Shown: one piece after another, positions 2,015 to 24,568 of the stretch
Layout of the letters: the number at the start of each line of letters is the position of its first letter
Numbering within the stretch: position 1 is the stretch's first letter
Origin: Fulvivirga lutimaris
Lineage (GTDB): Bacteria; Bacteroidota; Bacteroidia; Cytophagales; Cyclobacteriaceae
Assembly: GCF_009711525.1 (NCBI RefSeq)
Contig: NZ_SMLV01000436.1
Coordinates: 65,913 to 99,183 of the forward strand
Direction of reading: 5' to 3'
DNA: 33,271 nt
Notes under the pieces: generated by a model
Told to the model about the DNA's origin: nothing
Seen by the model: the letters and a program-made list of their open reading frames with translations, nothing else
Databases searched by the model: none
Position numbers and translations under genes: made by a program

Positions 2015-2042
2015 AAAGAGGAGTAAAATTTTACTCCTCTTT
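2015..2042 (-). terminator. 28-nt perfect palindrome at the end of the permease operon, overlapping its last codons
   Basis: AAAGAGGAGT and ACTCCTCTTT form a 10-bp stem around AAAATTTT. On the minus strand the left arm is made from the last codons (Lys-Glu-Glu-stop) of the fifth permease. A short T run and then AT-rich sequence follow. It probably ends or weakens transcription of the permease operon before the exporter gene, although the T tract is too short to be certain of full termination. Confidence 0.55.
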
Positions 2043-4424: not shown

Positions 4425-4436
4425 GTTGTTATTGGA

Positions 4437-6824
4437 TTATTCTTCTTTTAAAGCATCAATTGGATTAGAAATAGCAGCGCTTAATGACTGATACAATATT
4501 GTAAGCAGTGCTATAATTAACGTTGCCACTCCGGCAATGATGAAATAAAAAGGATTGAGGGAAATACTGTAGGCAAAATTTGAGAGCCATTCATCAGCAA
4601 ATAGCCAGGCCAATGGCCACGCTATAAGGTTAGCTGCCAATACTAGCTTGGTAAACTGGCTGCTAAGCTGCAATGAGATATTATAGACCGAAGCCCCTAA
4701 CACTTTACGAATACTAATCTCCTTAGATCTTTGATTAGCTGTAAATGCTGCCAGACCTAAAATGCCCAGGCAGCTTATTCCAATGCTGGTGAGGCTAAAC
4801 AATATGAATATGTTCTTTTGAGTAACTTCTTCATTGTACATGGCTTCTATTTTCGCATCCAAAAACTGATATTCAAAAGGGTATACATTTACAATTCTCT
4901 TGTATTCAACTTCAATATCAGCTAGCTGTTGTTGCACATTTGTACTTGATAATTTAATGGCAATTTTCCATGCTCGTCTGCTAGGAGATAATACCAAAGC
5001 CTCCATTTTGTCCTTGAGTGAGGAAAAATTATAATCCTTTACCACCCCAATAATTTCTCTGAAAGCTGAGTCTGCAAATTGATTTTTTAAGCGCTTGCCT
5101 AATGCATCTTCTGGAGTGGCGAAACCGAAGCTTTTAGAAGCAGTTTCATTTATTACTATGGCATTTTCTAAGTCGGGTTGGTTGTCCTTTCTAAAAAAGC
5201 GGCCAGTACTCATTTCTAAGCCAAAGGTTTGAAAATATGAAGCATCACAAAATACAGTTCGCATGGCAAATCCATCTTCATTGCCTTCAAGATGCAGTGA
5301 ATTCGTATCATGAAAACCTCCAGGTTCTCCAGTCATAGTACTTACGGTCTGTACACCATTAACTTGTTCCACTCTTTCTGTAAACAGGTCTAGATTGGAT
5401 TGTAAATCCTGATTGTTATTATTGATGAGCACAACATATTCCTTGTCAAAACCAAGTGGTTTTGATGATAAAAAGCTCATTTGACCGGAAATTACCAGTG
5501 TGGCTATAAACAGAAGAATAGAGCATGTAAACTGAAAAATCACCAAACCTTTTCTCAGAAGGGCTGACATTGTTCCCGATGCCGCCACTTTGCCTTTAAT
5601 AGTATTTAATGGGTTGAAGGAGGATAAAAGCAGAGCAGGATAAACCCCTGACAGAGTAACTAAAATTAGAACGGTTGATGACCCATAAATGATAGTTTGC
5701 TTGTTAAACCAGTTAATTTGAAGGTCAAGATTATACAGGCTGTTGAATTGTGGCAATAATATCTCCACCAGCATAAATCCCACTATTACGGAAAAACCGC
5801 AGATGGCGAATGCTTCTAACATATATTGAGTTAGAAGCTGTTTTTTATTTGACCCGAGAATTTTTCTAACACCAACTTCCTTGCTTCTTAACGATGAAAC
5901 GGCTGTGGTAAGGTTTACAAAATTGATGCAGGCTATGACGATAAGAAATATTCCGACCCAAAGGAATATGTAAACCGTGTCAATATTTCCATGAACATAA
6001 TTGTCGTATTGCACATCACTATCAAAATACATATCACGTATTTTCTGGAGCTCAAGCCCCATTTTTCTGCCTGTTTTTATGAAATCTTCACCAAAGTATT
6101 TCTCCATAAACCCTGGGAAAAGAGCTTCCAACTTTGTTTGAGAAGATGCTTCACTAACTTTCACATAGGTGACGAGGTTATTACTCCACCACTGCTTGAA
6201 AAAATTGAAATTTCTAATGACATCAATTCTACTGATCATATTAAAATCCAAATGCGATTTAACCACAGGCACTTTAATAACCCCAGTAACTATGAACTCG
6301 AAATCTCTGTCTAACCGAATCGTTTTATTAATAGGATTTTTATCGCCATATAACCTTTTTGAAGTGGCCTCAGTCAGGATAACTGACTGTGGGTTTGTGA
6401 AAGACGTACTTGCATCACCATAAACAAACTCATAATTAAAAAACTCGAAGAAGTTTGAGTCGGCCAAATAGAAAAAGTCTTCATTATAATGTGTTTCATC
6501 ATTTACAGAAACCAGGCCATCGGTGGGCATTACCCTTAGTGTGGATTCAACTTCATTAGGAAAATCATTAACCAGCGCTTCTGCAAAAGGACCTGAAGTT
6601 ACTCCTACTCTATAATCCTGACCATCCCTTACCGAATTACGCAACAATCTATAAATGTGCTCTGATTTGGCGAGACCTTTATCTGTGGAAAATTCAGTAT
6701 TGACATAGAGAGCTATGAGTGTGCTTATGAGCACTCCTAAAGTGAGCCCCAGCACATTCAGCATCAAAAAGAAAGGCCTCTTTTTGAGATTTCTATAGGT
6801 TGCTATTACATAATACTTGAGCAT
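4437..6824 (-). CDS. FtsX/MacB-type ABC transporter permease (fourth of the array)
   Basis: This 795-aa paralogue has the same helix/core/three-helix/helix/core/three-helix plan. The first core carries VTGVIKVPVVKSHLDFN and a slightly altered DKNPINKTI in place of the usual EDP(I/L)GKT. The second core carries IGVVKDYNFSSL. Coupling loops are SKEVGVRKILGS and SKEISIRKVLGA, and the C-terminus is NPIDALKEE. The membrane segment around residues 285-305 (IFLWVGIFLIVIACINFVNL) is the most conserved part among the five paralogues. The gene begins one base after the upstream permease ends, so translational coupling is likely. The periplasmic cores are the most divergent parts, suggesting different ligands or partners rather than simple gene dosage. 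Confidence 0.92.
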   Translation of the reverse strand: MLKYYVIATYRNLKKRPFFLMLNVLGLTLGVLISTLIALYVNTEFSTDKGLAKSEHIYRLLRNSVRDGQDYRVGVTSGPFAEALVNDFPNEVESTLRVMPTDGLVSVNDETHYNEDFFYLADSNFFEFFNYEFVYGDASTSFTNPQSVILTEATSKRLYGDKNPINKTIRLDRDFEFIVTGVIKVPVVKSHLDFNMISRIDVIRNFNFFKQWWSNNLVTYVKVSEASSQTKLEALFPGFMEKYFGEDFIKTGRKMGLELQKIRDMYFDSDVQYDNYVHGNIDTVYIFLWVGIFLIVIACINFVNLTTAVSSLRSKEVGVRKILGSNKKQLLTQYMLEAFAICGFSVIVGFMLVEILLPQFNSLYNLDLQINWFNKQTIIYGSSTVLILVTLSGVYPALLLSSFNPLNTIKGKVAASGTMSALLRKGLVIFQFTCSILLFIATLVISGQMSFLSSKPLGFDKEYVVLINNNNQDLQSNLDLFTERVEQVNGVQTVSTMTGEPGGFHDTNSLHLEGNEDGFAMRTVFCDASYFQTFGLEMSTGRFFRKDNQPDLENAIVINETASKSFGFATPEDALGKRLKNQFADSAFREIIGVVKDYNFSSLKDKMEALVLSPSRRAWKIAIKLSSTNVQQQLADIEVEYKRIVNVYPFEYQFLDAKIEAMYNEEVTQKNIFILFSLTSIGISCLGILGLAAFTANQRSKEISIRKVLGASVYNISLQLSSQFTKLVLAANLIAWPLAWLFADEWLSNFAYSISLNPFYFIIAGVATLIIALLTILYQSLSAAISNPIDALKEE

Positions 6825-6825
6825 A

Positions 6826-9189
6826 TTATTCTTCTTTCAATGAATCTACCGGGTTGGTTACTCCGGCTTTCAATGCGTGATAGGAGACAGTTATAAATGC
6901 GATTACAATAGCACTTAAAATGGCCAAAATATAAACCTCAGCCCCAATGCTAATTCTATAAGCAAAGTCATGAAGCCAGTCGCTCATTCCATACCATGAG
7001 ATTACCACAGCAGGTATAGCAGAAGCTAAAACGACATATAGATATTGCTTTGAGAAGGAGGTAATGATGCTACTGATAGAAGCTCCCAGTACTTTTCTGA
7101 TGGCTATTTCTTTAGTTTTCAACATTACACTGAAAGAAGCAAGAGCATAAAGTCCGAGGCATGAAATTACAATGGCCAAAATCATGGCATAAGTGAGCAC
7201 ATTGGCGATATTCTCTTCTGTCTCATAAAGGTCTCTGAATCGCTCTGCCGGGAAATAGTATTCATAGTTCAAACCGAAATCCATTTTCTCCCAGGTGCTG
7301 GCAATTGAAGCAAGCGTACTTTCTCTTGATTTGGGATTTAGTTTTATAGAGATAAATCGATAAGATCTAGCGCTATCTCCACCATAGTAATGCACTAATG
7401 GTTGCACAGGATCACGTAATGACTGCACATTAAAATCTTCTACCAGTCCAACAATATCAAGCTCTTCTCTGGACCTGGGAAATAATAATTTTTTGCCCTC
7501 AATAGATGACCAGCCAATTTGTTCCATAGCCGTTCTGTTAAGAATTACCCCATGCTCAAAGTCATTGGCTGACCCTTGAATGTACGAGCGACCTTGAAGC
7601 ACATCTACACCATAAGTATTAAAGAAATCATGATCAACAACGGCTACTTGCCAGTCCAGAGGAGGCATGTCTTCTTTACCTTTTGGCAGAAATAAGGTAA
7701 ATGATCTTCTATAGTTTCCTGGCACTGAGCTGGAACCCGTAACGGCCTCAACTCCAGGTAGCTTTTTAAGCTCATTTCTAAATGACACAACTCTTGGAAG
7801 TGCAGCTTGAGGGTCTTCAAAATCCCTTAAAGATAATGGGACTACCATCACATTGTCCTGATCAAAATTTAAGTCATGGGATTTCATAAAATCTATTTGC
7901 TGCATGATAATGCCCAAACTTCCCATCAAGGCAATTGCCAAAATAAACTGAATGCTCACCAATAGGTTACGCACCGTCATTTTACCGGAAACCTTGTCTC
8001 CCTTGAAGATCGAAACGGACTTCATTCTGGAGACAAAAAGTGCAGGGTAGCTACCAGAGATAAAACCGATGGCTAGTGCCAGAAGTAGCATTATTGACAG
8101 GTTAATAGGTGAGTAAACAATGTCCAGCTGGATACCAATCAGGTCGTTGAATTTAGGTAAAAGAAGCTCTGCTAACAGTCCGCCAAGAAGCAAGGCTAGG
8201 AGACTCATAATCATCGATTCGCCAATAAATTGACTAATGAGGCCTCCTTTTTTAGCACCTAAAACTTTTCTTACGCCTACTTCTTTGGTTCTTAATAAAC
8301 TCTGAGAAGTAGAAAGGTTAGCAAAGTTGATGATGGCAATGAATAAGATGCCAAAGGCAACAATTAGCATGATATAGGCATATTGCTTTTGGCCAGTCAT
8401 TTTATCAAAATAGTCTTTGATTGGTAAGATTAGAAAATCGCCCCTTTCTTGTTCTACTACATATTTATCCATGAGGATGTGCAACTGATCGGCAAGTTGT
8501 TTGTCATCTGCACCAGCTTTTAACTTGATAAAGGAGTTACAGAAAGACCCACCCCATAAATTCTCGCCAACCCAGTTATGAACCACCCTGTCATTCATAG
8601 GAACAATACATTCAAAAGTGAAAGATGAGTTAGAAGGGATTTTTCCCAGAACTCCAGTCACCACACGCTCGTTGTTAAAACCAAAAGTTAGTGTTTTGCC
8701 TATAGGGTCTTCATCACCAAAGAATTTGTTGGCTACTTCTTCAGAGATTATTACCGCATCGATCTCGTTTAAGGCAGTTAATGGATCACCTTTGATCATT
8801 GGGAAGGAGAACACATCAAAGAAGTTAGAGTCCGCATAAGTGAGGGATTGTTCAAAACCCTTATCCCCTCTTTGGATCATGGTGTTACCAATGTTCACAC
8901 TTCTTGTTCCTTCGGCAATTGTAGGAAATTCTTCTTTAGCCACATCTACCAAAGGATACCAGGTGTCAAAGACATCTAACCTGCCATCTTCGGTTGGCCT
9001 GTCTCTGTACATGAAATATATCTGGTCAGAATCGGCATGAAACTGATCATAGGATAAGATGCTTTGAGCATAAATCAGTATCAGTATGGTTACGGCAATA
9101 CTACCGGCCAGACCTGCAATATTGATAATGGAGTAGGACTTGTGTTTGAGTAAGTTCCTAATAGCGACTTTGATGAGGTTTTTAAACAT
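6826..9189 (-). CDS. FtsX/MacB-type ABC transporter permease (third of the array)
   Basis: At 787 aa this is the shortest of the five. The N-terminal helix begins after FKNLIKVAIRNLLKHKSYS, a basic start common to these permeases. The first core has VTGVLGKIPSNSSFTFEC and EDPIGKTL; the second has VGLVEDFNVQSL. Coupling loops are TKEVGVRKVLGA and TKEIAIRKVLGA, and the tail is NPVDSLKEE. The loop after the second-core box (DSARSYRFISIKLNP) fits the usual periplasmic fold. It lies 21 bp after the second permease and 1 bp before the fourth. The required ATPase is not in the window. The family is certain; the transported substrate or mechanotransmission role is not. Confidence 0.92.
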   Translation of the reverse strand: MFKNLIKVAIRNLLKHKSYSIINIAGLAGSIAVTILILIYAQSILSYDQFHADSDQIYFMYRDRPTEDGRLDVFDTWYPLVDVAKEEFPTIAEGTRSVNIGNTMIQRGDKGFEQSLTYADSNFFDVFSFPMIKGDPLTALNEIDAVIISEEVANKFFGDEDPIGKTLTFGFNNERVVTGVLGKIPSNSSFTFECIVPMNDRVVHNWVGENLWGGSFCNSFIKLKAGADDKQLADQLHILMDKYVVEQERGDFLILPIKDYFDKMTGQKQYAYIMLIVAFGILFIAIINFANLSTSQSLLRTKEVGVRKVLGAKKGGLISQFIGESMIMSLLALLLGGLLAELLLPKFNDLIGIQLDIVYSPINLSIMLLLALAIGFISGSYPALFVSRMKSVSIFKGDKVSGKMTVRNLLVSIQFILAIALMGSLGIIMQQIDFMKSHDLNFDQDNVMVVPLSLRDFEDPQAALPRVVSFRNELKKLPGVEAVTGSSSVPGNYRRSFTLFLPKGKEDMPPLDWQVAVVDHDFFNTYGVDVLQGRSYIQGSANDFEHGVILNRTAMEQIGWSSIEGKKLLFPRSREELDIVGLVEDFNVQSLRDPVQPLVHYYGGDSARSYRFISIKLNPKSRESTLASIASTWEKMDFGLNYEYYFPAERFRDLYETEENIANVLTYAMILAIVISCLGLYALASFSVMLKTKEIAIRKVLGASISSIITSFSKQYLYVVLASAIPAVVISWYGMSDWLHDFAYRISIGAEVYILAILSAIVIAFITVSYHALKAGVTNPVDSLKEE

Positions 9190-9210
9190 GAGATTTTGAG
9201 TTTTAGGTTT

Positions 9211-11634
9211 TTAATCTTTCAGCACATCTACAGGATTTCCTTTTGTTGTTCTAAATGTCAGATGTCCTATGGTTATCAGCGCTACGACAATTAGTGCCGT
9301 AGCAGCGAGGGCAAAATCAAACCAGTTAATATTTATGTGATATCTGAAATTTTCCAGCCAGCGGGTCATCACCCACCATGCTGTGGGTATTGCTACCACA
9401 ATGGCAATGAATATCAGCCTGCTAAAATCGTGAAGTAGTAGTTTTAACAATGCCTTAGTGGAGGCACCTAATATTTTTCTAATGCCTACCTCTTTCTTGC
9501 GTTGTGAGTAGCTTAATGAGGCCATTCCGAAAAGGCCAAAGCAGGCAATAAATATGGCGATGGCCGAGAACCCTGAAAATACTGTAGCCGTTTTGTTTTC
9601 GCTGCTGTAAAGCTGACTCAGGTCTTGAGATAGTACGGTATACTCAAAGCCAAAACGATCTTCAAACTGCTGCCAAACTTCCTCGATAGAGGCTACTGTT
9701 TCTCTAATATCACCAACCTTGGTTTTAATAATGAAGCTATTGTAACCAGGAAAGCGATTAAAAATTAATGGCCGTACGGGCTGATGTAATGAGTTGAAAT
9801 GGAAATCTTTCACAATCCCGATGAGTGTTCCTCTTAATGGCTCGGCACCATTATTATCCCAATGCCATACTATTTCAGAACCAATACCATTGGTTAGATT
9901 CAACTGTTTGGCTGCAGTCTCATTAATGATAAAAACAGAAGTGTCCTTTTTGTAGTCCTTGTTGAAATTTTGGCCTTCAAGGAATTCTATGCCCAATGTT
10001 TTGAAGAAGTCATGTTCTACCAGCACCTCTGAGGCATTGATAAGCATGTTAGGATCATTCGCCAGAGAAACAGCATTCTGGTTGAACTGCTGACCAGGAA
10101 TATTGGAGCTACCAGATACACTTTCAACATTTGGAATCCGAAGCATTTCGGCTTTCATTTCCTGAAATTTTGAATACAGAGCGTAGTTCTTAAGTGGAAC
10201 TACAATCACCTTTTCACTATCAAAGCCAAGGTCTTTGCTATTTACAAACTGTAGCTGGTGATAGATAACGATACTCCCAACGATTAATATCATTGAAATC
10301 GCAAACTGAAAAACCATCAATGACTTCCTTAATAAACTTCCTTTTGGGTTAATCTTTTCAATACCTTTAAGACTAACAGCGGCATTTAAATTGGAAAGAA
10401 ATAGTGAAGGATATAGACCCGCAATTAGTCCTGAAATCAGGGTGCTTCCTACCAAAATTACCAGCAGTATGGGTTGATTGATATAAGAAATAACTAAGGA
10501 TTTGCCTGTGATTGAATTGAAGATCGGTAATCCAACTTCTGCAATAAGACCAGCAAAAATCATTGCTAGAATGGCAATCAGAAACGACTCCCCAAGAAAC
10601 TGAAAAGTGAGTTGCTTTTTAAAAGCCCCTAAAGATTTTCTAATGCCTATCTCTTTGGAACGCATAACAGAAAGTGAAGTGGCCAGGTTCATAAAATTGA
10701 TGCAGGCGATTACAAGAATAAGAATAGCGGCAGCCAGCATAATGTAGATGTACTCTATATTACTATTTGACTCCAACTCCCATCTAATGTTAGATTTTAG
10801 ATGAATATCTGTGATACGCTGCAATTCGAAATGATCGCCAGCCTCTTTGGCATTTTTCCACTCTTCTGGAGATACATCAACATATTTCTCAGCCCAGCTC
10901 ATCAATTGGCTTTGCAATAGATCAGGGTTACTGCTATGCTTTAATCTGATATAATTGAAATGACCAAAATCTGCCCAGGCAAAAAACTGATCCCCGGGCT
11001 CACGCATAGACTTGTTGGCCACATAAGAAACAAGAATATCAAAATGGAAATGGGAGTTGACGGGTACATCTTCAAATACACCTTCTACCGTTACTTTGAG
11101 GTCATCAAAGTTTATTGACAACTCCTTGCCCATTGGATCTTCGTCTCCAAAGTACTTTTTGGCAATACTTTCTGAAATCACCACTCCTTGAGTGCTTCTA
11201 AGTACCTTGTCTTTATTACCTCTGATCAGATTAAATGAAAACACATCGAAAAACGTGCTATCTACACTCAGTAGTTCTGTTTCATCGTAAGTGATATCCT
11301 TTTCAAGGTTACGAACTGAGAAGCGTTGTTTGGTTAAACCAGGTCCCCAAAGAGGAGAGAGAGAGACTGCTGTTTCTACCTGAGGAAACTCGGCTACAAG
11401 GCCCTGAGCCATTGGGTGCGGGGTACGGGTTTGTGGGTCATCAGACCACCATGCAATACGGTAAATGTCATCAGCATCTTCATGAAACTGATCATAGCTT
11501 AATTCATCAATGATAAATAAGCTAATCAACAGCACGGACGCTAAACCAACGGCTAGGCCGGTGATATTGATGGCCGCATGCACCCTCGATTTGAGGATAT
11601 TGCGAAAGGCGATTTTAAGATAATTTTTGAGCAT
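9211..11634 (-). CDS. FtsX/MacB-type ABC transporter permease (second of the array)
   Basis: At 807 aa this is the longest of the five. The first periplasmic core has VEGVFEDVPVNSHFHFD and EDPMGKEL; the second has IGIVKDFHFNSL. Coupling loops are SKEIGIRKSLGA and KKEVGIRKILGA, and the C-terminus NPVDVLKD lacks the usual final Glu-Glu. Eight membrane helices are expected in the standard order. The start ATG (complement of 11632-11634) gives the family-typical beginning MLKNYLKIAFRNI. It is 11 bp downstream of the first permease and belongs to the same transcription unit. Assignment rests on architecture and conserved boxes. Identity to its neighbours appears modest, so the duplications are not recent. 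Confidence 0.92.
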   Translation of the reverse strand: MLKNYLKIAFRNILKSRVHAAINITGLAVGLASVLLISLFIIDELSYDQFHEDADDIYRIAWWSDDPQTRTPHPMAQGLVAEFPQVETAVSLSPLWGPGLTKQRFSVRNLEKDITYDETELLSVDSTFFDVFSFNLIRGNKDKVLRSTQGVVISESIAKKYFGDEDPMGKELSINFDDLKVTVEGVFEDVPVNSHFHFDILVSYVANKSMREPGDQFFAWADFGHFNYIRLKHSSNPDLLQSQLMSWAEKYVDVSPEEWKNAKEAGDHFELQRITDIHLKSNIRWELESNSNIEYIYIMLAAAILILVIACINFMNLATSLSVMRSKEIGIRKSLGAFKKQLTFQFLGESFLIAILAMIFAGLIAEVGLPIFNSITGKSLVISYINQPILLVILVGSTLISGLIAGLYPSLFLSNLNAAVSLKGIEKINPKGSLLRKSLMVFQFAISMILIVGSIVIYHQLQFVNSKDLGFDSEKVIVVPLKNYALYSKFQEMKAEMLRIPNVESVSGSSNIPGQQFNQNAVSLANDPNMLINASEVLVEHDFFKTLGIEFLEGQNFNKDYKKDTSVFIINETAAKQLNLTNGIGSEIVWHWDNNGAEPLRGTLIGIVKDFHFNSLHQPVRPLIFNRFPGYNSFIIKTKVGDIRETVASIEEVWQQFEDRFGFEYTVLSQDLSQLYSSENKTATVFSGFSAIAIFIACFGLFGMASLSYSQRKKEVGIRKILGASTKALLKLLLHDFSRLIFIAIVVAIPTAWWVMTRWLENFRYHININWFDFALAATALIVVALITIGHLTFRTTKGNPVDVLKD

Positions 11635-11645
11635 TTATTTTGAGT

Positions 11646-14021
11646 CTAAGATTCTTTTAAAACATCAGCAGGCTTTGTTAATGCAGCTTTTAGCGTGCTA
11701 TAACCAACTGTGAGAAGGGCTATAGATATGGCTGAGCCGCCAGCGATAATGAACGGCATAACACCCACCTCTATGTGATAGGCATAATTAGAGAGCCAGT
11801 ACTTTCCGTAAAAGAAGGCAATAGGGGCAGCTATAATAAACGAGATAAAAACCAATGTTGTAAAACCTTTAGAAAACAGAATAAGAAGGCTGGCCTCTGA
11901 GGCTCCAAGCACTTTTCTGATACTGGTTTCTTTTGATTTTTGTTCAGCAACAAATGCTGAAAGTCCGAATAGGCCAAGGCATGAAATAATGATCGCTGCT
12001 ACGGCAAATACACTGCTTAATTTACCAGCGGTATCAATGTCACTATACTTCTGCTGGTACAAGTCATCAACAAAGTTGTATTCAAATACATACTCATCTT
12101 CATACTTTGAGTAAACTGATTGAATAGCCTTAAGAGCATCTTTCTTAGATTGATCAGAGGCAATACTGATAAAAGCGTTCCATGTTTCCTGTGGGTTGCA
12201 AATGATCACTACGGGCTCTATTGACTGAGCTAAAGATTGATGGTGGTAATCTTTGATCAACCCAACTACTTTGCCTTCATGACCCCAGACCGTTAAATCC
12301 ATCCCGATTGGATTTTCAACCATTATGGCTTTGGCCGCTGACTCATTGATAAGGAAAGTTTTTTGATCGTTGGAGTTATTTTTTTCAAACGCTTTGCCCT
12401 CGAGTATTTCAATTTCAAAGGTTTCTGTAAAGTCCTGATCCACCTGAATTACATTGAAAAAGATGTCCGTGTCCTCTGGTTTTCCCGGCCAAAAAACACC
12501 AGCGTTAGCATTATCAGTGCCGAATGGATCCTGCTCAGTAAAAGTTACTGACTCAACTCCTGGTATTTGTAGCAGTTCGCTTTTATAAGTGTCTTGCTTA
12601 CCTCTAATTCCGTTAAGGGCATGCCTTACTATATTGCTTTTCCTTATACCAAGCTCTTTGTTTTGGATAAAATCCACTTGGTCAAAAACAAGCAGTGTAA
12701 AGACTATAAAGACTATAGATAATGTAAACTGAAAAATCACCAGGCCTTTGCGAAGTCCTTTCAATCCATCAGTGATAGAGCCATTACTTTTTAATGTTTT
12801 AGTAACATCAAAAGAGGAAAGGAAAAATGCAGGATAAATGCCCGCTAAAATGCCAATGATTAAAGTTGAACCAACCAGCAGCAAAATAAATCCAACCGAG
12901 CTAAAAGGTACCACTATGGCTTTTTGGGTAAGTAGGTTGAATGAGGGCATTAGCACCTCAACAAAGGCAATGGCGATAATAAAAGCGAAGGCTGAGATAA
13001 TTAAAGATTCAGTTAAAAACTGAAATACGATCTGACCCTTTTTTGCTCCTGCAGTTTTTCTAAGGCTTACCTCTTTAGCTCTTTTATGAGCAATGGCTGT
13101 GGAAAGATTAATAAAATTGATGCACGCAATTAAGAGTACAACGAGGGCTATAAAGAACAATAATTTAACATATTTGATTCTTCCTGTAGGCACTCTTCCA
13201 TTAGAAAAATCTGAGTGTAAGTATACCTCTTCAAATGGATAAATAAAGATTTCATCATTGGTTTCTTCGGGCAGATACTTTTGAAAGAGCGAGTTTAATT
13301 TGGCTTCAAAGTCTTTGGTATTTATACCGTCCTGCAGTTGAGCATAGGTGGTAAGGTTAAAATTTGAAAAGGCCCATCTATTGCTCTTCCCCCACCATGG
13401 ACGAGACTCAGATTCAAATTTGTCATAAGGTAAAAGGTAGTCGAATGAAAGTGAAGAATAGCCCGGCAGGGACTCTAGAACACCAGTAACTATATACTGC
13501 TGCTTTTCCTTTTGTACAATGTCAATATACTTTCCTAATGCAGATTGTCCGGGGAAGTATTTTTCAGCTAATTCGGCTGATATAACTACGGAGTGAGTTT
13601 CTCTAAAGGTATTTTCAATGGCACCTTCCTTTAAAGGGAAGTTAAAAATCTTTAGAAATGATGAATCGACATAAAGGCCTGATTCTGAGAACTTAAAAGC
13701 ATCTTTTGAAAAAACGACCTTTGATGGAAAGACTCTGGTAATATTTTCAACTTCTGGCAATTGATCAATGACAGGCTCAACCATGGCAGAAGGAAAGTAA
13801 GGCCTGATTAGTCTTTCACCATCGGGTCCCACTTCACCAAAGAGCTGATAGATGTTGACTCCATTGTTATGGAATTGGTCTTGTCTTAGCTCGTCCCATA
13901 CCCATAATGATATAAAGGCAAAGCAGGCTATGCCGAAGGCAAGGCCTAAAATATTCACGGTAGTGAACACCTTGTTTTTGACAAGATTTCTTAGTGCTAT
14001 TTTAAGGTAATTTCTGAGCAT
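11646..14021 (-). CDS. FtsX/MacB-type ABC transporter permease (first gene of the sigma-54 operon)
   Basis: This 791-aa protein is the first gene transcribed in the array. The N-terminus MLRNYLKIALRNLVKNK leads into helix 1. The first core has VTGVLESLPGYSSLSFDY and QSALGKYI, where the usual EDP is lost. The second core has VGLIKDYHHQSL. The first coupling loop is unusual (AKEVSLRKTAGA instead of ..GVRKVLGA); the second is standard (SKETSIRKVLGA). The tail is KPADVLKES. Its ATG lies about 26 bp from the -12 element of a sigma-54 promoter, implying a leader of about 15 nt. An enhancer-like pair of operators lies about 100-120 bp upstream of the predicted start. Production should therefore depend on an NtrC-type activator, most likely the one encoded at 18964-20331. 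Confidence 0.92.
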   Translation of the reverse strand: MLRNYLKIALRNLVKNKVFTTVNILGLAFGIACFAFISLWVWDELRQDQFHNNGVNIYQLFGEVGPDGERLIRPYFPSAMVEPVIDQLPEVENITRVFPSKVVFSKDAFKFSESGLYVDSSFLKIFNFPLKEGAIENTFRETHSVVISAELAEKYFPGQSALGKYIDIVQKEKQQYIVTGVLESLPGYSSLSFDYLLPYDKFESESRPWWGKSNRWAFSNFNLTTYAQLQDGINTKDFEAKLNSLFQKYLPEETNDEIFIYPFEEVYLHSDFSNGRVPTGRIKYVKLLFFIALVVLLIACINFINLSTAIAHKRAKEVSLRKTAGAKKGQIVFQFLTESLIISAFAFIIAIAFVEVLMPSFNLLTQKAIVVPFSSVGFILLLVGSTLIIGILAGIYPAFFLSSFDVTKTLKSNGSITDGLKGLRKGLVIFQFTLSIVFIVFTLLVFDQVDFIQNKELGIRKSNIVRHALNGIRGKQDTYKSELLQIPGVESVTFTEQDPFGTDNANAGVFWPGKPEDTDIFFNVIQVDQDFTETFEIEILEGKAFEKNNSNDQKTFLINESAAKAIMVENPIGMDLTVWGHEGKVVGLIKDYHHQSLAQSIEPVVIICNPQETWNAFISIASDQSKKDALKAIQSVYSKYEDEYVFEYNFVDDLYQQKYSDIDTAGKLSSVFAVAAIIISCLGLFGLSAFVAEQKSKETSIRKVLGASEASLLILFSKGFTTLVFISFIIAAPIAFFYGKYWLSNYAYHIEVGVMPFIIAGGSAISIALLTVGYSTLKAALTKPADVLKES

Positions 14022-18963: not shown

Positions 18964-20331
18964 ATGAATGATGCGCATATATTGGTAATCGATGATGATG
19001 TAGATGTGCTACATACAGCACGCATTGTCTTAAAACCACAATTTTCAAAAGTGGTGGTGGAGAGTAATCCACAGCAGATTAATTTTTTGCTCAGTAATCA
19101 GCAATTTGATGTGGTTTTACTGGATATGAATTTCACTACTGGGGCTACTAACGGACAAGACGGTCTTACCTGGCTACAAAAGATCCGTGAGATTAAACCA
19201 GACCAACAAGTGGTAATGATGACCGCCTATGGTGACATCAAGCTTGCGGTTGAAGCCATGAAGCGTGGGGCTGCGGATTTTATAGTTAAGCCATGGGAAA
19301 ACGAGAAGTTTTTGGCAACCATACAATTGGCCTATGAGCATGGTAAATCCAAAGAAGAGATTAAAACTTTAAAGGCACAGCAGAGCTCCATTCACCAAAT
19401 GCTGATAGCCAGTGATGATATTGTAGAGGGTGAATCTGAAGCCATGAAGCAAGTGCTAAAGCAAGTGCAGAAGGTTGCCGGTACTGATGCTAATGTTCTA
19501 ATTCTTGGTGAGAATGGAACTGGAAAGGAAGAAATTGCTAAACTGTTGCATAAGAACTCACTCCGAAACAAAGGGCCATTTATTAAGGTTGATTTGGGCG
19601 CTATTACAGAAACGCTATTCGAATCGGAGCTATTTGGACATGTAAAAGGCGCTTTTACTGATGCTAAAGAAGACAGGCATGGTAGGTTTATTTTGTCAGA
19701 TGGAGGCACCTTGTTTTTAGATGAAATTGGCAATCTATCATTAGCTATGCAGGCGAAACTTTTATCTGTATTGCAGAATAAGGAAGTAACTCCAGTGGGT
19801 GGATCCAAACCTACTAAAGTTAATAATAGGGTTATAGCGGCTACCAATAGTGATATCCAAAAAGGAATAGCCGAAAAGGCTTTTAGAGAGGATTTACTTT
19901 ATAGATTAAATACAGTAACTATAGTATTGCCTCCCTTACGGGAACGTGTAGAAGACATACCAGCGCTAGCTAATCACTTTCTTAAGTCTTTTAACAACAA
20001 GTATGGTAAATATGCATCCTTTGGTGCAGGAGTCATTGATGAGCTGAAAGGATATAGTTGGCCTGGCAATATTCGTGAGTTGATGCACGCCATAGAGCGA
20101 GCGGTGATCATGTCAGATGCAGATTCCCTCACTATGAATGATTTTCTTATCAACCAAAATAATTTGGCCAACCCTTTGGTAGACACTGTGAACCTTGATG
20201 ACATCGAAAAGAACACGATAGAAAGGGCCATCAAAAAGTATGAAGGCAATATTAGCAAGGCAGCCAAAGAGTTGGGTTTAGGACGTACCACCATTTATAG
20301 GAAGATGGATAAATATGGCATCAAATATTAA
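18964..20331 (+). CDS. Sigma-54-dependent response regulator (NtrC family)
   Basis: This 455-aa regulator has three domains. The receiver (about 1-125) has the acidic group Asp10-12, phosphoacceptor Asp54 and Lys109. The AAA+ domain (about 155-385) has Walker A GENGTGKE at 182-189, Walker B GGTLFLDE at 247-254, and the sigma-54 contact loop at 229-234 reading GAFTDA instead of GAFTGA. A Fis-type helix-turn-helix lies at about 430-448 (ISKAAKELGLGRTTIYRKM). When phosphorylated it should form a ring, bind upstream dyads and remodel sigma-54 polymerase. The kinase gene follows 3 bp later. Operators in front of its own gene and the permease operon mark both as targets. The match to the permease sigma-54 promoter makes the regulon assignment strong, but direct binding is inferred. 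Confidence 0.95.
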   Translation: MNDAHILVIDDDVDVLHTARIVLKPQFSKVVVESNPQQINFLLSNQQFDVVLLDMNFTTGATNGQDGLTWLQKIREIKPDQQVVMMTAYGDIKLAVEAMKRGAADFIVKPWENEKFLATIQLAYEHGKSKEEIKTLKAQQSSIHQMLIASDDIVEGESEAMKQVLKQVQKVAGTDANVLILGENGTGKEEIAKLLHKNSLRNKGPFIKVDLGAITETLFESELFGHVKGAFTDAKEDRHGRFILSDGGTLFLDEIGNLSLAMQAKLLSVLQNKEVTPVGGSKPTKVNNRVIAATNSDIQKGIAEKAFREDLLYRLNTVTIVLPPLRERVEDIPALANHFLKSFNNKYGKYASFGAGVIDELKGYSWPGNIRELMHAIERAVIMSDADSLTMNDFLINQNNLANPLVDTVNLDDIEKNTIERAIKKYEGNISKAAKELGLGRTTIYRKMDKYGIKY

Positions 20332-20334
20332 GGC

Positions 20335-21672
20335 ATGAGTTTTAAATTCCATGTCATATTCCGCTGCTTACTTATCCTTCTGGCATCGTTGGTACTTTCC
20401 TGGGTGCTGCTCAATCGTGATTGGTTTTTCACGCCTTTAGTATTAGTCCTGATCTTATCGGGGCTTGTGGCGAACCTCATATATTATGTAGAAAAGACCA
20501 GTCGTAATCTTGCTCAGTTCCTGTTGAACGTCAAACAAGGAGGATTCACACACTCTTTCAAAAACGATCAGGAAGGACATAATAAGCTTAACAAGGTTTT
20601 TAATGATGTTATAGAAGAGTTTCATCGTGTATCTATGGAGCGTGAGTCGCACTATTTATACCTGCAAACACTCAACGAAAACCTGGGTGTTGCGCTTATT
20701 AGTTATGACGAGGAAGGTAAGATCGATTTACTAAACCCTGCCGCTAAAAATTTATTAAAACGCCCTATCCTCAGACACATTGATGAGTTGAAAGAAATTG
20801 ATGATGGTCTTTTAAGCATGGTAAAATCACTGCAATCCGGTGATCGTAAGGTGTTAAAAACCATTATTGATAATCAGTTGATCCAGCTATCTATTCAGTG
20901 CAAACTTTTTAAGGTGCAGGATAAAACCTTTACGCTATTATTGATCCAAAATATTAACGAAGAGCTTGAGCAAAAGGAAGTGGAGGCCTGGCAAAGGCTG
21001 GTTAGTGTTCTGACACATGAGATTATGAACTCAGTAACCCCTATTGCTTCTTTAAGTGATGCCTTCAATAACCTATTGGAAAGAAAGAAGTCATTCAACA
21101 ACTTTAGTGAGGAAGAAACACAGGATTTATCAGAAAGCCTAAAAACAATAGAGAGACGAAGCAAGGGCCTGATGAAATTTGTGAATGCCTATAAAGATTT
21201 TGCGAAAAACCCTGATTTAAACATTACCCAATTTGAATTGAATGAGCTCTTGCAGCGCATCATAAAATTATTTCAGCCTGATCTGGAGAGTGCTCAAATT
21301 GAAATTAAATATCAGTATGCCAAAGAGGGCTCAACTATAGCGGCAGATTATGACTTGATGGAGCATGTAATTATCAATCTGATAAAAAATGCCATTGAGG
21401 CATTACGGGGAAAGGAAAATGCAGTGCTGGGCATTCAGCTTGCGAAAAGTAATCGTCAGATTTCATTAAAAATAATTGATAATGGCCCCGGTATAGCGGC
21501 TGAAGACATGGATAAAGTGTTTATCCCCTTCTATACCACCAAAAAGGCGGGGTCAGGTGTTGGTCTCAGCTTAGCAAGAAAAATAATAAAGCTGCATGAC
21601 GGCAACCTTTTGGTTAAATCAATTCCTAATCAATACACCTGTTTTACCATTGAATTAGAGGCTCTGAAATAA
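20335..21672 (+). CDS. Membrane sensor histidine kinase, NtrB/NtrY-like, partner of the NtrC-type regulator
   Basis: This 445-aa kinase has two N-terminal membrane helices (about 6-26 and 33-52) separated by only a few residues, so it has almost no periplasmic domain. A HAMP-like or linker region and a PAS-like domain (about 110-210, LGVALISYDEEGKIDLLNPAA) follow. The dimerisation/phosphoacceptor helix carries His228 in LTHEIMNS. The ATPase domain has the N box NLIKNAIEAL, G1 DNGPGIAAED, the F box FIPFYTTKK and G2 GSGVGLSLARKI. The lack of an extracytoplasmic sensor suggests it senses a membrane or cytoplasmic cue, or envelope stress through a partner. It is encoded 3 bp after the regulator in one operon. 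The signal is unknown; a role in reporting envelope or antimicrobial stress to the permeases is inference. Confidence 0.94.
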   Translation: MSFKFHVIFRCLLILLASLVLSWVLLNRDWFFTPLVLVLILSGLVANLIYYVEKTSRNLAQFLLNVKQGGFTHSFKNDQEGHNKLNKVFNDVIEEFHRVSMERESHYLYLQTLNENLGVALISYDEEGKIDLLNPAAKNLLKRPILRHIDELKEIDDGLLSMVKSLQSGDRKVLKTIIDNQLIQLSIQCKLFKVQDKTFTLLLIQNINEELEQKEVEAWQRLVSVLTHEIMNSVTPIASLSDAFNNLLERKKSFNNFSEEETQDLSESLKTIERRSKGLMKFVNAYKDFAKNPDLNITQFELNELLQRIIKLFQPDLESAQIEIKYQYAKEGSTIAADYDLMEHVIINLIKNAIEALRGKENAVLGIQLAKSNRQISLKIIDNGPGIAAEDMDKVFIPFYTTKKAGSGVGLSLARKIIKLHDGNLLVKSIPNQYTCFTIELEALK

Positions 21673-21749
21673 AGTGTGGATAACCCCGTGATTATCAGTA
21701 AATAATGGTTGATAAACACCTGCTTTTAAGGCCAATTTTTTGTTCAAAA

Positions 21750-21780
21750 CTTGTGGGAAACAACAACCTTAAAAAGTTTG
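21750..21780 (+). promoter_or_regulatory. Candidate promoter of the noncoding RNA
   Basis: CTTG at 21750-21753, a 19-base gap and AAAGTTTG at 21773-21780 fit the Bacteroidota -33 TTTG / -7 TAnnTTTG pattern with one mismatch in each box and correct spacing. The predicted start is at about 21785-21788. It lies 78 bp after the kinase stop. Confidence 0.5.
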
Positions 21781-21784
21781 CGAT

Positions 21785-22265
21785 TGCAAAAATAATGATG
21801 ACCTTAGATTCACCAAGTGAGAGATACTCTCGGCAAACACAAAAGAGTGTTAGGTCAGTAAAGTTAGTTTCGTGATGTAATTGTACAAGGGTTTCGGACT
21901 TCGGTTTAGAAATTGAGATGACTAAAGTCGCAGGGTCAATTCATTATAGAATAGTTCTTCTAAATAACTGTTAATACAGCTTGCTGAATTAATAAGATTT
22001 AAGAGAATTTGATGTTAAGGGTGAAAGGTCAGCTGCCTCGGTAGACTGTCTGAGATGACTAATAGTTGCAAAAAGCTTTAATATCAAGTATCACCTAAGG
22101 GAGTGGTATTATTTGAGAGAGTAGCATGAAAGCCAGACGTAGAATGAGCACCTCGGTGCAATATCGCTACAAAAGCCAGATAACTGTAGCTTGGTCACAA
22201 TAGCAGCTACGGTTGCTAAAAGTGAAATGGAGATTTTTCGTTAAGAGAAATCTCCATTTTTGTTT
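21785..22265 (+). ncRNA. Unassigned structured noncoding RNA of about 480 nt
   Basis: This stretch has no credible open frame but has many hairpins in a row. They are a three-way junction closed by TGACCT/AGGTCA (21799-21857), a UUCG-capped hairpin at 21892-21912, TTAAT.CAG/CTG.ATTAA at 21971-21992, and a CUCG-loop hairpin at 22030-22048. They continue with an 8-bp stem at 22087-22110, GTAGC/GCTAC at 22121-22170 enclosing GCAC(CUCG)GUGC, and an 11-bp stem at 22181-22215. An intrinsic terminator ends it, and a promoter lies just upstream. The landmark sequences of tmRNA (tRNA-like ends, tag ending ALAA), RNase P RNA (GAGGAAAGTCC) and SRP RNA are absent. Twelve bases, TGAGATGACTAA, occur twice (21914 and 22051). 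The 5' end is approximate. Pairings were found by eye, without energy calculation or covariation. Confidence 0.6.
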
Positions 22266-22266
22266 T
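22225..22266 (+). terminator. Intrinsic terminator of the noncoding RNA
   Basis: AAATGGAGATTT (22225-22236) pairs perfectly with AAATCTCCATTT (22248-22259) around an 11-base loop. TTGTTTT follows directly. The T run is present only on the plus strand, which fixes the direction of the transcript it ends. Confidence 0.85.
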
Positions 22267-22270
22267 ATGA

Positions 22271-22303
22271 CCATCTACTAATCCTTGAAGGATTAGTAGA
22301 TGG
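22271..22303. repeat. 33-nt near-perfect palindrome
   Basis: CCATCTACTAATCCTT is followed by one G and then its exact reverse complement, giving 16-bp arms with a single central base. No T run follows on either strand, so it does not look like a classic terminator. It could be an operator for a dimeric protein, a small dispersed palindrome or a cruciform site. It stands 5 bp after the noncoding RNA's T run. Confidence 0.7.
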
Positions 22304-22334
22304 GTGTTTCATTATAAGTAGCCAGGCAGAGATA

Positions 22335-22378
22335 CCGGATAAATAAAGGTTTTAAAAAGATAAACCTTTATTTTCCGG
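22335..22378 (-). terminator. Inverted repeat downstream of the DPP-IV-like gene, probable terminator
   Basis: AATAAAGGTTT and AAACCTTTATT pair as an 11-bp stem, flanked by CCGG on both sides. It lies 22-65 bp beyond the stop of the minus-strand peptidase gene, the usual place for a terminator. The stem is AT-rich and there is no clean T run outside it, so efficiency is uncertain. Confidence 0.45.
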
Positions 22379-22399
22379 CATGACAGCAGCTTCCTTAGC

Positions 22400-24568
22400 T
22401 TACAAATTCTCTTTCACCCAGTTGGTCAACATAGTGAATAAATGCATTCTGGCATTGTCTTTTGAAATACCATGAGCCCTGTCAGGGTAGTAGAATGAAT
22501 CAAACTGCTTGCCTTCATGGATCAGCACATTCTGCAATGTCACTGCATTTTGGAAATGCACATTATCATCACCAGTACCATGCACTAAAAGGTAATTGCC
22601 TTTAAGTTTAGCTGCATGGGTAGTTGGCGAGTTACTGTCATAGCCATCAGCATTATTTTGTGGCGTATCCATGTAACGCTCAGTGTAGATGGTATCATAA
22701 AATCTCCAGTTGGTCACAGGAGCAACGGCAATAGCCGCTTTGAAAAGTCCTTCACCCTGAAACATTGCCAATGACGACATATAGCCACCATAGCTCCATC
22801 CCCAAATACCAATTCTCTCTTCATCAATGTATGGAATATTACCCAGATATTTTGCTCCGGCCTGGTGATCGATAGACTCATATTTACCTAATTGCTTATA
22901 AGTAAGCTTCTTAAATTTAGCTCCTCTTCCTCCTGTACCTCTAGGGTCAATAACAACAACAATATAACCTTCTTGAGTTAGCATCTGGTGCCAGTAAAAG
23001 TTGCTACCACCACCCCAGTTGTTCCATACCTGCTGAGAACCCGGACCGCTATATTGAAATACTAGCGCAGGATATTCCTTATTCTCATCAAAGTTGGCCG
23101 GCTTAATCATATAGCCATTAATTGATGTACCATCTACTGTATTGTAAGTAAAAAACTCTTTCTTTTGAACATTATATTCTTTGATAGTCGCCTCTAGTTT
23201 TTGATTGTCTTCTAAAGTCTTCACCAGCTTGTTTTTAGCCGTGCTGTAAAGATTCACATGACGTGGGTGATCATTGCTGCTGTGACTATCAATATAATAT
23301 TTAAAATCACTACTCATATTAATGCTGTGAACACCAGGTTCAGCCCTTAGCGATTTCTTGTTCTTACCATTAATATCTACTGAATAGAAAAGTCTATCCA
23401 TTGGAGAGTATTCTGTTGAGGTGAAATACAACTTGGCGGTTCTTGAAGACTCATCTACCCCTAAGAAATTATCTACTTCCCAATTGCCAGAAGTAATCTG
23501 ATTTTTCAGTTTCCCGTCAATTCCGTACCAGTAAAGGTGCTTGTAACCACTTTTTTCACTGGCAAAAATGAATGATTTACCATCCTTCAAATAGGTAAGG
23601 TCATCTACAAAATCAATGTCAATATAAGTATCTGTAGTTTCAGACAAGATCACTTTAGCTTCAGCCGTTTTAGTGTTAACATGCAGCAGGTCAATCTTAT
23701 TTTGAAGTCTATTTAGCCTGATCAATGATAACTCATTAGGGTTTGGGGTCTGGCTAATTCGTGCAATATAATACTCGCCTTCACCTACTTTTACCTCCTT
23801 CTTGGCTTTAGTAGAAAGGGTGTAGATAGTTGCCTTTAATTTGGAATTGTCTTCACCAGCTTTTGGGTATTTAAACCTGTAATCTGTTGGGTACAACTGC
23901 CCCTTATTCCACACCTGCATGTTGTATTCTCTAACTCCACTTTCATCAAAAGTCAGATAAAACAGATCATTATTTCCTGACCATTCAAAAGCTCTGGTTG
24001 AAGACAGTTCCTCCTCATAAACCCAGTCAGTGCTACCGTTAATGATGTGGTTAAACTTGCCATCATCAGTTACCTGCACTTCACTGCCATCTGATAGATT
24101 AACATAGAACAAATTGTTACCTCTCACAAACGCCACTTTAGTTCCGTCAGGAGATAATGTAGCATAAGACTGCTTTCCATTATCAGAAAGTTTGGTCAAA
24201 GACTTACTCGCGAAGTCATAGATATAGAACTCGGCCGTATAAGACCTTCTGTAAATACTTTCTCTTTCTGTTAATAACAACACCTTGCTCTCATCAGCAT
24301 TAAATGAGTAGCTCGAAAAGTCAATTTTTGGGCTCAGGGCATCACCATCCAAAATAGTTTCCACTATCTCGCCAGTAGTGATATCATATTTTACAATATC
24401 ATTACCCTCAAGTGCGCTGTAATACTGCCCGGCATTCATCCAGTTGATTCCTCTAACTGAGGCTTCGCTAAATGTCCCCTTCTGATAAATGTCTGCGACA
24501 GTAATTTTCTTTTGAGCATGTAAGGCCATACTCATGCCAGCAAAAATTATAATAAGAATATTTCTCAT
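22400..24568 (-). CDS. Dipeptidyl-peptidase-IV-like serine peptidase (family S9B), exported
   Basis: This 722-aa enzyme begins with a signal peptide (about 1-19, MRNILIIIFAGMSMALHAQ). An eight-bladed DPP-IV beta-propeller region follows, with DWVYEEEL at 181-188, whose glutamates grip the peptide N-terminus. The C-terminal alpha/beta-hydrolase domain has Ser592 in GWSYGGY, Asp667 in GTGDDNVHF and His699 in DRAHGIS. Spacing is close to the human enzyme (Asp-His interval identical at 32). It should remove Xaa-Pro dipeptides in the periplasm, helping peptide use. Related enzymes are common in asaccharolytic and proteolytic Bacteroidota. The gene is 37 bp downstream of the trans-sulfuration gene on the same strand and may share its transcript. 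Specificity for proline rather than another residue is inferred from the motif. Confidence 0.93.
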   Translation of the reverse strand: MRNILIIIFAGMSMALHAQKKITVADIYQKGTFSEASVRGINWMNAGQYYSALEGNDIVKYDITTGEIVETILDGDALSPKIDFSSYSFNADESKVLLLTERESIYRRSYTAEFYIYDFASKSLTKLSDNGKQSYATLSPDGTKVAFVRGNNLFYVNLSDGSEVQVTDDGKFNHIINGSTDWVYEEELSSTRAFEWSGNNDLFYLTFDESGVREYNMQVWNKGQLYPTDYRFKYPKAGEDNSKLKATIYTLSTKAKKEVKVGEGEYYIARISQTPNPNELSLIRLNRLQNKIDLLHVNTKTAEAKVILSETTDTYIDIDFVDDLTYLKDGKSFIFASEKSGYKHLYWYGIDGKLKNQITSGNWEVDNFLGVDESSRTAKLYFTSTEYSPMDRLFYSVDINGKNKKSLRAEPGVHSINMSSDFKYYIDSHSSNDHPRHVNLYSTAKNKLVKTLEDNQKLEATIKEYNVQKKEFFTYNTVDGTSINGYMIKPANFDENKEYPALVFQYSGPGSQQVWNNWGGGSNFYWHQMLTQEGYIVVVIDPRGTGGRGAKFKKLTYKQLGKYESIDHQAGAKYLGNIPYIDEERIGIWGWSYGGYMSSLAMFQGEGLFKAAIAVAPVTNWRFYDTIYTERYMDTPQNNADGYDSNSPTTHAAKLKGNYLLVHGTGDDNVHFQNAVTLQNVLIHEGKQFDSFYYPDRAHGISKDNARMHLFTMLTNWVKENL

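Follow-up and report, generated by a model that had tools for sequence, protein, structure and literature searches.

The window, by which we mean the whole stretch of 33,271 nucleotides of Fulvivirga lutimaris DNA analysed here, contains a gap between a histidine kinase gene (20335-21672) and a minus-strand DPP-IV-type peptidase gene (22400-24568), both named according to Pfam. No ORF of at least 80 aa was found within 21672-22400, and the longest ORF within 21673-22399 comprises 56 aa on the plus strand. This bears out an earlier reading made from the letters alone (the sequence-only reading), which had seen no credible open frame between the two genes. The segment from approximately 21811 to 22265 looks like an independent, non-coding and highly structured RNA of about 455 nt. 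This claim is based on sequence and covariation, from which we infer transcription; the predicted features are collected in Table 1.

Several further observations were made around the locus. A row of five ORFs of 787-807 aa occupies 2031-14021 on the minus strand, of which the one tested (2031-4424) carries MacB and FtsX permease domains; next come an NtrC-type response regulator and the kinase (18964-21672). Two perfect inverted repeats lie 3′ of the RNA: one of 16 bp around a 1-base loop (22271-22303), just behind the terminator and itself terminator-like on the plus strand, and one of 12 bp around a 9-base loop (22341-22373), near the 3′ end of the opposite-strand peptidase gene.

Table 1. 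Predicted features of the RNA locus (positions in the window)
Feature	Position	Strand	Basis or remark
Three DnaA-box-like sites: TGTGGATAA (21675-21683), GGTTGATAA (21707-21715), TGTGGGAAA (21752-21760)	21675..21760	+ (RNA strand)	
-33-like element TTTG	21777..21780	+	resembles the Bacteroidota-type consensus
-7-like element GACCTTAG, TAnnTTTG-like; relatives TACATTTG, TACCTTTG and similar	21800..21807	+	comparison of 67 loci
Predicted structured non-coding RNA	21811..22265	+	start placed by promoter, end by terminator and T run
Conserved 5′ box CCAAGTGAGAGA (AYCAAGYGAGRGATA in relatives); 21813-21818 is the P1 5′ strand	21813..21824	+	
P1 closing helix	21813-21818/22189-22194	+	long-range, covariation
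P2 long-range helix	21832-21834/22175-22177	+	3/3 pairs changed on both sides, 83.3% of cells paired
P3 hairpin AACAC/GUGUU	21836..21851	+	alignment
P4 long-range helix	21853-21855/22132-22134	+	100% of cells paired, 2/3 pairs changed on both sides
P7 hairpin, outer stem 21889-94/21909-14, UUCG cap in window	21889..21914	+	5/6 pairs changed on both sides
P8 hairpin, first copy of repeated TGAGATGACTAA motif	21919..21930	+	repeat and covariation
P6 long-range helix	21949-21953/22110-22114	+	98.6% of cells paired, 3/5 pairs changed on both sides
P9 hairpin, second copy of TGAGATGACTAA motif	22056..22068	+	4/4 pairs changed on both sides
P10 hairpin, CUCG-capped inner hairpin in window	22139..22170	+	4/4 pairs changed on both sides
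Conserved 3′ box ATAACTGTAGCTTGG; 22189-22194 is the P1 3′ strand	22180..22194	+	
P12 hairpin GCAGC/GUUGC	22203..22216	+	covariation
Intrinsic terminator, stem 22224-22239/22245-22260 and T-rich tail	22224..22265	+	predicted, covarying

Predicted ends and fold of the RNA

The TTTG at 21777-21780 and GACCTTAG at 21800-21807 resemble the Bacteroidota-type -33/-7 promoter consensus. When 67 distinct loci were searched for TTTG-N17..22-TAnnTTWG with one mismatch allowed, such a pair was present just before the 5′ box in 42, compared with 1.3% at random positions, and was missing under this test from the other 25. The two elements thus place the predicted transcript start near 21811 and not at 21785; RNA polymerase would start about 4 nt past the -7 box and stop at the terminator-like site found at 22224-22260. 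A Bacteroidota-type promoter, a strong plus-strand terminator and defined ends had all been proposed in the sequence-only reading, and the recurring promoter-like pair and the covarying terminator of the relatives agree with this. Its 3′ end at 22265 stands, while its start at 21785 and its length of about 480 nt should be corrected to approximately 21811 and 455 nt. A minus-strand promoter in the conserved 5′ region was also considered and dropped; the relatives have a plus-strand TAnnTTTG at a fixed distance from the RNA. No same-strand gene lies directly downstream, as a cis-regulatory leader or riboswitch would have it: the terminator is followed by the opposite-strand peptidase gene, and the neighbours differ among relatives.

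For the plus strand of 21785-22265, none of 100 dinucleotide shuffles folds as well (z −3.26). Folded from 21811, z is −3.48 and the minimum-energy structure closes P1 by itself. The result for the minus strand of 21785-22265 is less clear (z −2.01, with 2 of 100 shuffles equally good). In an alignment of 14 full-length sequences from Fulvivirga and two near genera, the 62 proposed pairs are formed in 95.6% of cells and 38 of them have changed on both sides. Two-sided changes were counted in 120 cells, compared with 35.5 (sd 6.0) after shuffling and 9-28 with the partners slid; for the four long-range helices alone the numbers are 35 and 12.0. Covarying stems, which the sequence-only reading had named as support for it, are present, and the UUCG- and CUCG-capped hairpins described there can be read in the sequence. 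The picture of a series of local hairpins, however, did not hold, as four long-range helices which had not been named join both halves of the RNA.

Because the helices had been chosen on nearly the same alignment as was used for this test, parts of the fold were tested on other loci. The outer P1 pair is formed in all of 54 further loci (the 67 minus 12 used earlier and one of doubtful distance), namely as C-G in 17, U-A in 15, U-G in 20 and A-U in 2, and never as C-A (Fisher p 0.0009); the inner four P1 pairs carry little information here, since the selection of the loci largely predetermined them. For the 3′ hairpin and terminator, 24 loci outside the covariance model of the 3′ part (R2, built from 38 sequences) were used, i.e., 23 class loci and the locus L236 in an alignment fitted to the model, and 160 two-sided cells were found versus 59.1. 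Constraint thus acts on base-pairing, with strands up to about 380 nt apart. The distance from 5′ box to 3′ box ranges from about 200 to 625 nt across loci, so that the body varies around a constant P1 core. The RNA would form a nested, multi-branched body closed by P1, and P1 would join the two most conserved segments, AYCAAGYGAGRGAUA and AAUAACWGUARCUUGR. A helix proposed at the 5′ end (GACCT/AGGTC) is broken in several relatives and was not kept. The 12-base motif TGAGATGACTAA occurs twice in the RNA (21914-21925 and 22051-22062) with a covarying hairpin at each copy; the covariance model of the 5′ part (R1, 13 sequences) gives a second match inside some relatives.

The upstream array and the replication origin

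Three sites above the promoter are DnaA-box-like. Such sites were counted as TGTKNAWAA, and the DnaA box itself as the strict TGTGNATAA. Over the 132 bp that precede the promoter in 67 loci, TGTKNAWAA was found 140 times on the strand of the RNA but only 4 times on the opposite one (background in downstream sequence 0.017 per strand and locus), and TGTGNATAA 55 times versus 0.55 in shuffles. The loci compared are related, so neither sites nor distances are independent events. At least one site is present in 64 of the 67 loci and at least two in 50, with none in three. Neighbouring sites are spaced at multiples of about 11 bp, 71 of 76 distances being 11-13, 21-25, 32-36, 43 or 46; the remaining ones are 19, 65-67 (four) and 77. 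These sites played no part in finding the loci.

The array has the arrangement of DnaA-regulated promoters, several DnaA-box-like sites lying upstream and in phase, and from the likeness of its sites to DnaA boxes we infer binding of DnaA. Sitting on this helically phased array, some 40-150 bp upstream, DnaA or a different oligomeric protein whose site is DnaA-like would control the promoter, and the output of RNA would follow the replication or cell-cycle state.

Once the DnaA-like boxes had been seen, the possibility that the locus is oriC was taken seriously. In Fulvivirga, sampled GC skew locates the RNA close to the switch, within the top 7.7% (G014), 4.6% (G004) and 2.4% (G011; permutation p 0.09) of chromosome positions, and it is also near the fitted switch in G006. 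It lies away from the switch in four genera outside Fulvivirga (G136, 33%; G147, 39%; G191, 60%; G042, 99.7%, i.e., on the opposite side). A search for DnaA-box pairs in 12 genomes revealed that G014, G004, G147 and G191 have other clusters close to the fitted switch, while the distance is up to about 0.3 Mb in G042 and about 0.2 Mb in G136. In G011 this search found none near the switch, and G006 is ambiguous, since the RNA and other clusters both fit a broad optimum. Clusters far from any switch also exist in G014 and G004, and a cluster alone is thus no origin marker. Candidate box pairs of the real oriC were noted near the switch at about 2.25-2.29 Mb (G014:C1), 1.42 Mb (G147:C1), 2.35 Mb (G191:C1) and 0.854 Mb (G004:C1).

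In the sampled genomes other than G011 and G006, the array is not the DnaA-box cluster nearest to the skew switch. Given the off-switch RNA in four other genera and the other DnaA-box clusters, oriC is unlikely for the class of loci, though an origin role may apply in Fulvivirga G011 and G006. The array travels with the RNA wherever it is located, and the RNA may have a place-tied role in Fulvivirga, where it is near the switch.

The locus could also be another kind of replication-control site, either one that titrates or reactivates DnaA in the manner of datA and DARS, or an accessory origin. The RNA would then act there in cis, e.g., in DNA opening or as a primer. We consider this unlikely. 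It would agree with the phased array beside the promoter, with the origin-proximal position in Fulvivirga G014, G004, G011 and G006, and with the lack of another cluster near the switch in the box-pair search of G011. On the other hand, a structure kept over the whole transcript, with strands about 380 nt apart, is needless for a cis site, and the RNA is off the fitted switch in G042, G191, G147 and G136. Furthermore, up to 35 of the 93 family genomes matched by R2 have at least two matches, some of them weak or overlapping.

Distribution and relation to known RNA families

By blastn, the RNA was detected in 12 of 15 Fulvivirga genomes, and the 3′ model adds G006 (13/15). A wider scan gave some match in 16 of 98 genomes, which are the same 12 Fulvivirga genomes, G025 of the same family, and three (G044, G053, G061) with matches of 23-35 bases that were left out of the count. 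R1 detected 19 of 148 family genomes and 5 of 194 order genomes; three of these five belong to the family, among them the genome of the window itself, and the other two, from outside it, appear to be false. The R1 matches L051-L053 were discarded as they contain neither box, and L052 and L053 are repeat-rich and coding-like (L054 is from the same genome as these two). With matches of E 0.001-0.01 included, R2 gave candidates in 93 of 196 family genomes (44 of 84 genera; one match, G174, on two overlapping strands looks false) and 47 of 395 class genomes. In the phylum, 9 of 395 genomes had a match at E up to 0.001, and the single one outside the class looks false. Among 23 class loci outside the family, the 5′ box stands at a fitting distance in 18, plus L176. 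L236 is a plausible but distant relative, and the phylum match L237, without 5′ box or array, was not counted.

A pattern scan of named genomes recovered 19 stretches, from Cyclobacterium, Cecembia, Algoriphagus, Aquiflexum, Pararhodonellum and Fulvivirga, from records named to family level only, and from one distant metagenome bin (L147). At L145, L146, L148, L036, L037/L047 and L038/L049, at least two diverged copies of the RNA lie about 0.7-7.5 kb apart, and every copy that was inspected has boxes upstream. In named contigs the distance between copies is about 0.8 to 7.3 kb.

The spread is patchy: under filters that lose weak matches, no match was obtained in 103 of the 196 genomes from the family or in 348 of the 395 from the class. 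Among 220 ORFs neighbouring the RNA, no protein family is common to more than four genus groups, the most widely shared group comprising 13 ORFs from four. Patchiness and several copies in some genomes would be expected of a selfish or phage-derived structured RNA on mobile elements, like some large ornate RNAs. We regard this as improbable, however, as two exact patterns (and these only as exact patterns) had no match in viral contigs, no neighbour family extends beyond four genus groups, and promoter and array are kept with the RNA.

At gathering thresholds, Rfam 15 gave no match in the window, in 12 loci that come mostly from the same genus, or in 13 loci drawn more widely. With E up to 10, 17 matches were obtained in 21650-22400, all far below the gathering score of their own family. 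Specifically, there was no match at the locus to RF00010 (RNase P RNA), RF00023 (tmRNA), or RF01685 and RF00013 (6S RNA), and ARAGORN detected a tmRNA neither in the window nor at 11 related loci, in agreement with the sequence-only reading, which had noted that the landmarks of tmRNA and RNase P RNA are absent. The tmRNA of the draft genome itself was not found above the cut-off, and in the own-genome search with RF01685 the controls had no match either; the tmRNA and 6S RNA of this genome are thus not established and those functions cannot be assigned by elimination. A strongly diverged form of tmRNA, 6S RNA, RNase P RNA or another known housekeeping RNA would suit the size range and these two gaps, but it is very improbable in view of the Rfam and ARAGORN results, an RNase P RNA of 270.7 bits on another contig, and a predicted 3′ end that is a terminator and no tRNA-like CCA end.

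Structured Bacteroidetes RNAs with Rfam accessions, 6S-Flavo (RF01685) among them, appear in PMC2864571 and would by these accessions be covered by the Rfam scan. No description of the RNA was found in titles and abstract openings of the open-access literature; it may still be an unnamed entry in a large prediction catalogue such as PMC8040213 or one of the independent transcripts of PMC9723704.

In summary, sequence and covariation give strong support to the view that the segment is a stand-alone structured non-coding RNA gene, one of a Bacteroidia class of about 280-700 nt that belongs to no Rfam 15 family. What is new is this predicted RNA class, outside every Rfam 15 family. The main proposal of the sequence-only reading, an independent structured RNA, is supported: no known family matched at gathering in the window or in 25 relative loci, and blastn and covariance matches in many genera and in other families of the class reach far past near-identical strains.

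Proposed mode of action and comparison with known systems

That no common neighbour gene was found suggests action in trans, and an own promoter and an own terminator together with changing neighbours likewise point to a trans-acting RNA. We favour, with moderate confidence, a trans-acting structured RNA controlled by DnaA or a DnaA-like oligomer, whose transcription, DnaA binding and function are all deduced from sequence. The RNA would act as a protein-bound scaffold or regulator, and its conserved P1 core would bind a protein. More tentatively, and with clear doubt on our side, this could be a Bacteroidia-wide class of large structured RNAs whose transcription is coupled to DnaA by a phased array of boxes, mostly off oriC. 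The RNA would then signal how replication initiation stands and act back on genes of replication or the cell cycle. If true, it would be an RNA arm of the DnaA regulon. Across much of a bacterial class, compensatory changes back the fold; the ends are predicted, and the DnaA-box-like array hints at how the RNA is controlled. Whether replication control is linked to a structured RNA can be tested directly in named relatives such as Fulvivirga, Algoriphagus and Cyclobacterium.

New classes of large structured RNA seldom come to light, and several described earlier have proved to be enzymes, scaffolds or RNA-only assemblies. OLE, GOLLD and ROOL are bacterial RNAs that comparative genomics revealed, and they too are large, intricate and stand-alone. 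The likeness to the window RNA is in style only: they belong to another clade, whereas the window RNA has no Rfam match and carries a DnaA-box-like array above its promoter. The raiA motif RNA (ModT) is likewise described as a conserved structured RNA, present in thousands of species and expressed on its own. That description names Bacillota and others, and the window RNA has no Rfam match. 6S-Flavo (RF01685) and the other RNAs of PMC2864571 are likewise structured and from Bacteroidetes, but they are in Rfam and have no match in the window. Finally, oriC, datA and DnaA-regulated promoters share with the window several same-strand TGTGNATAA-like sites at helical spacing. An array of the window type differs from such DnaA-box clusters in that it is followed by a promoter and a structured RNA, and in that it lies off the skew switch in four genera other than Fulvivirga.
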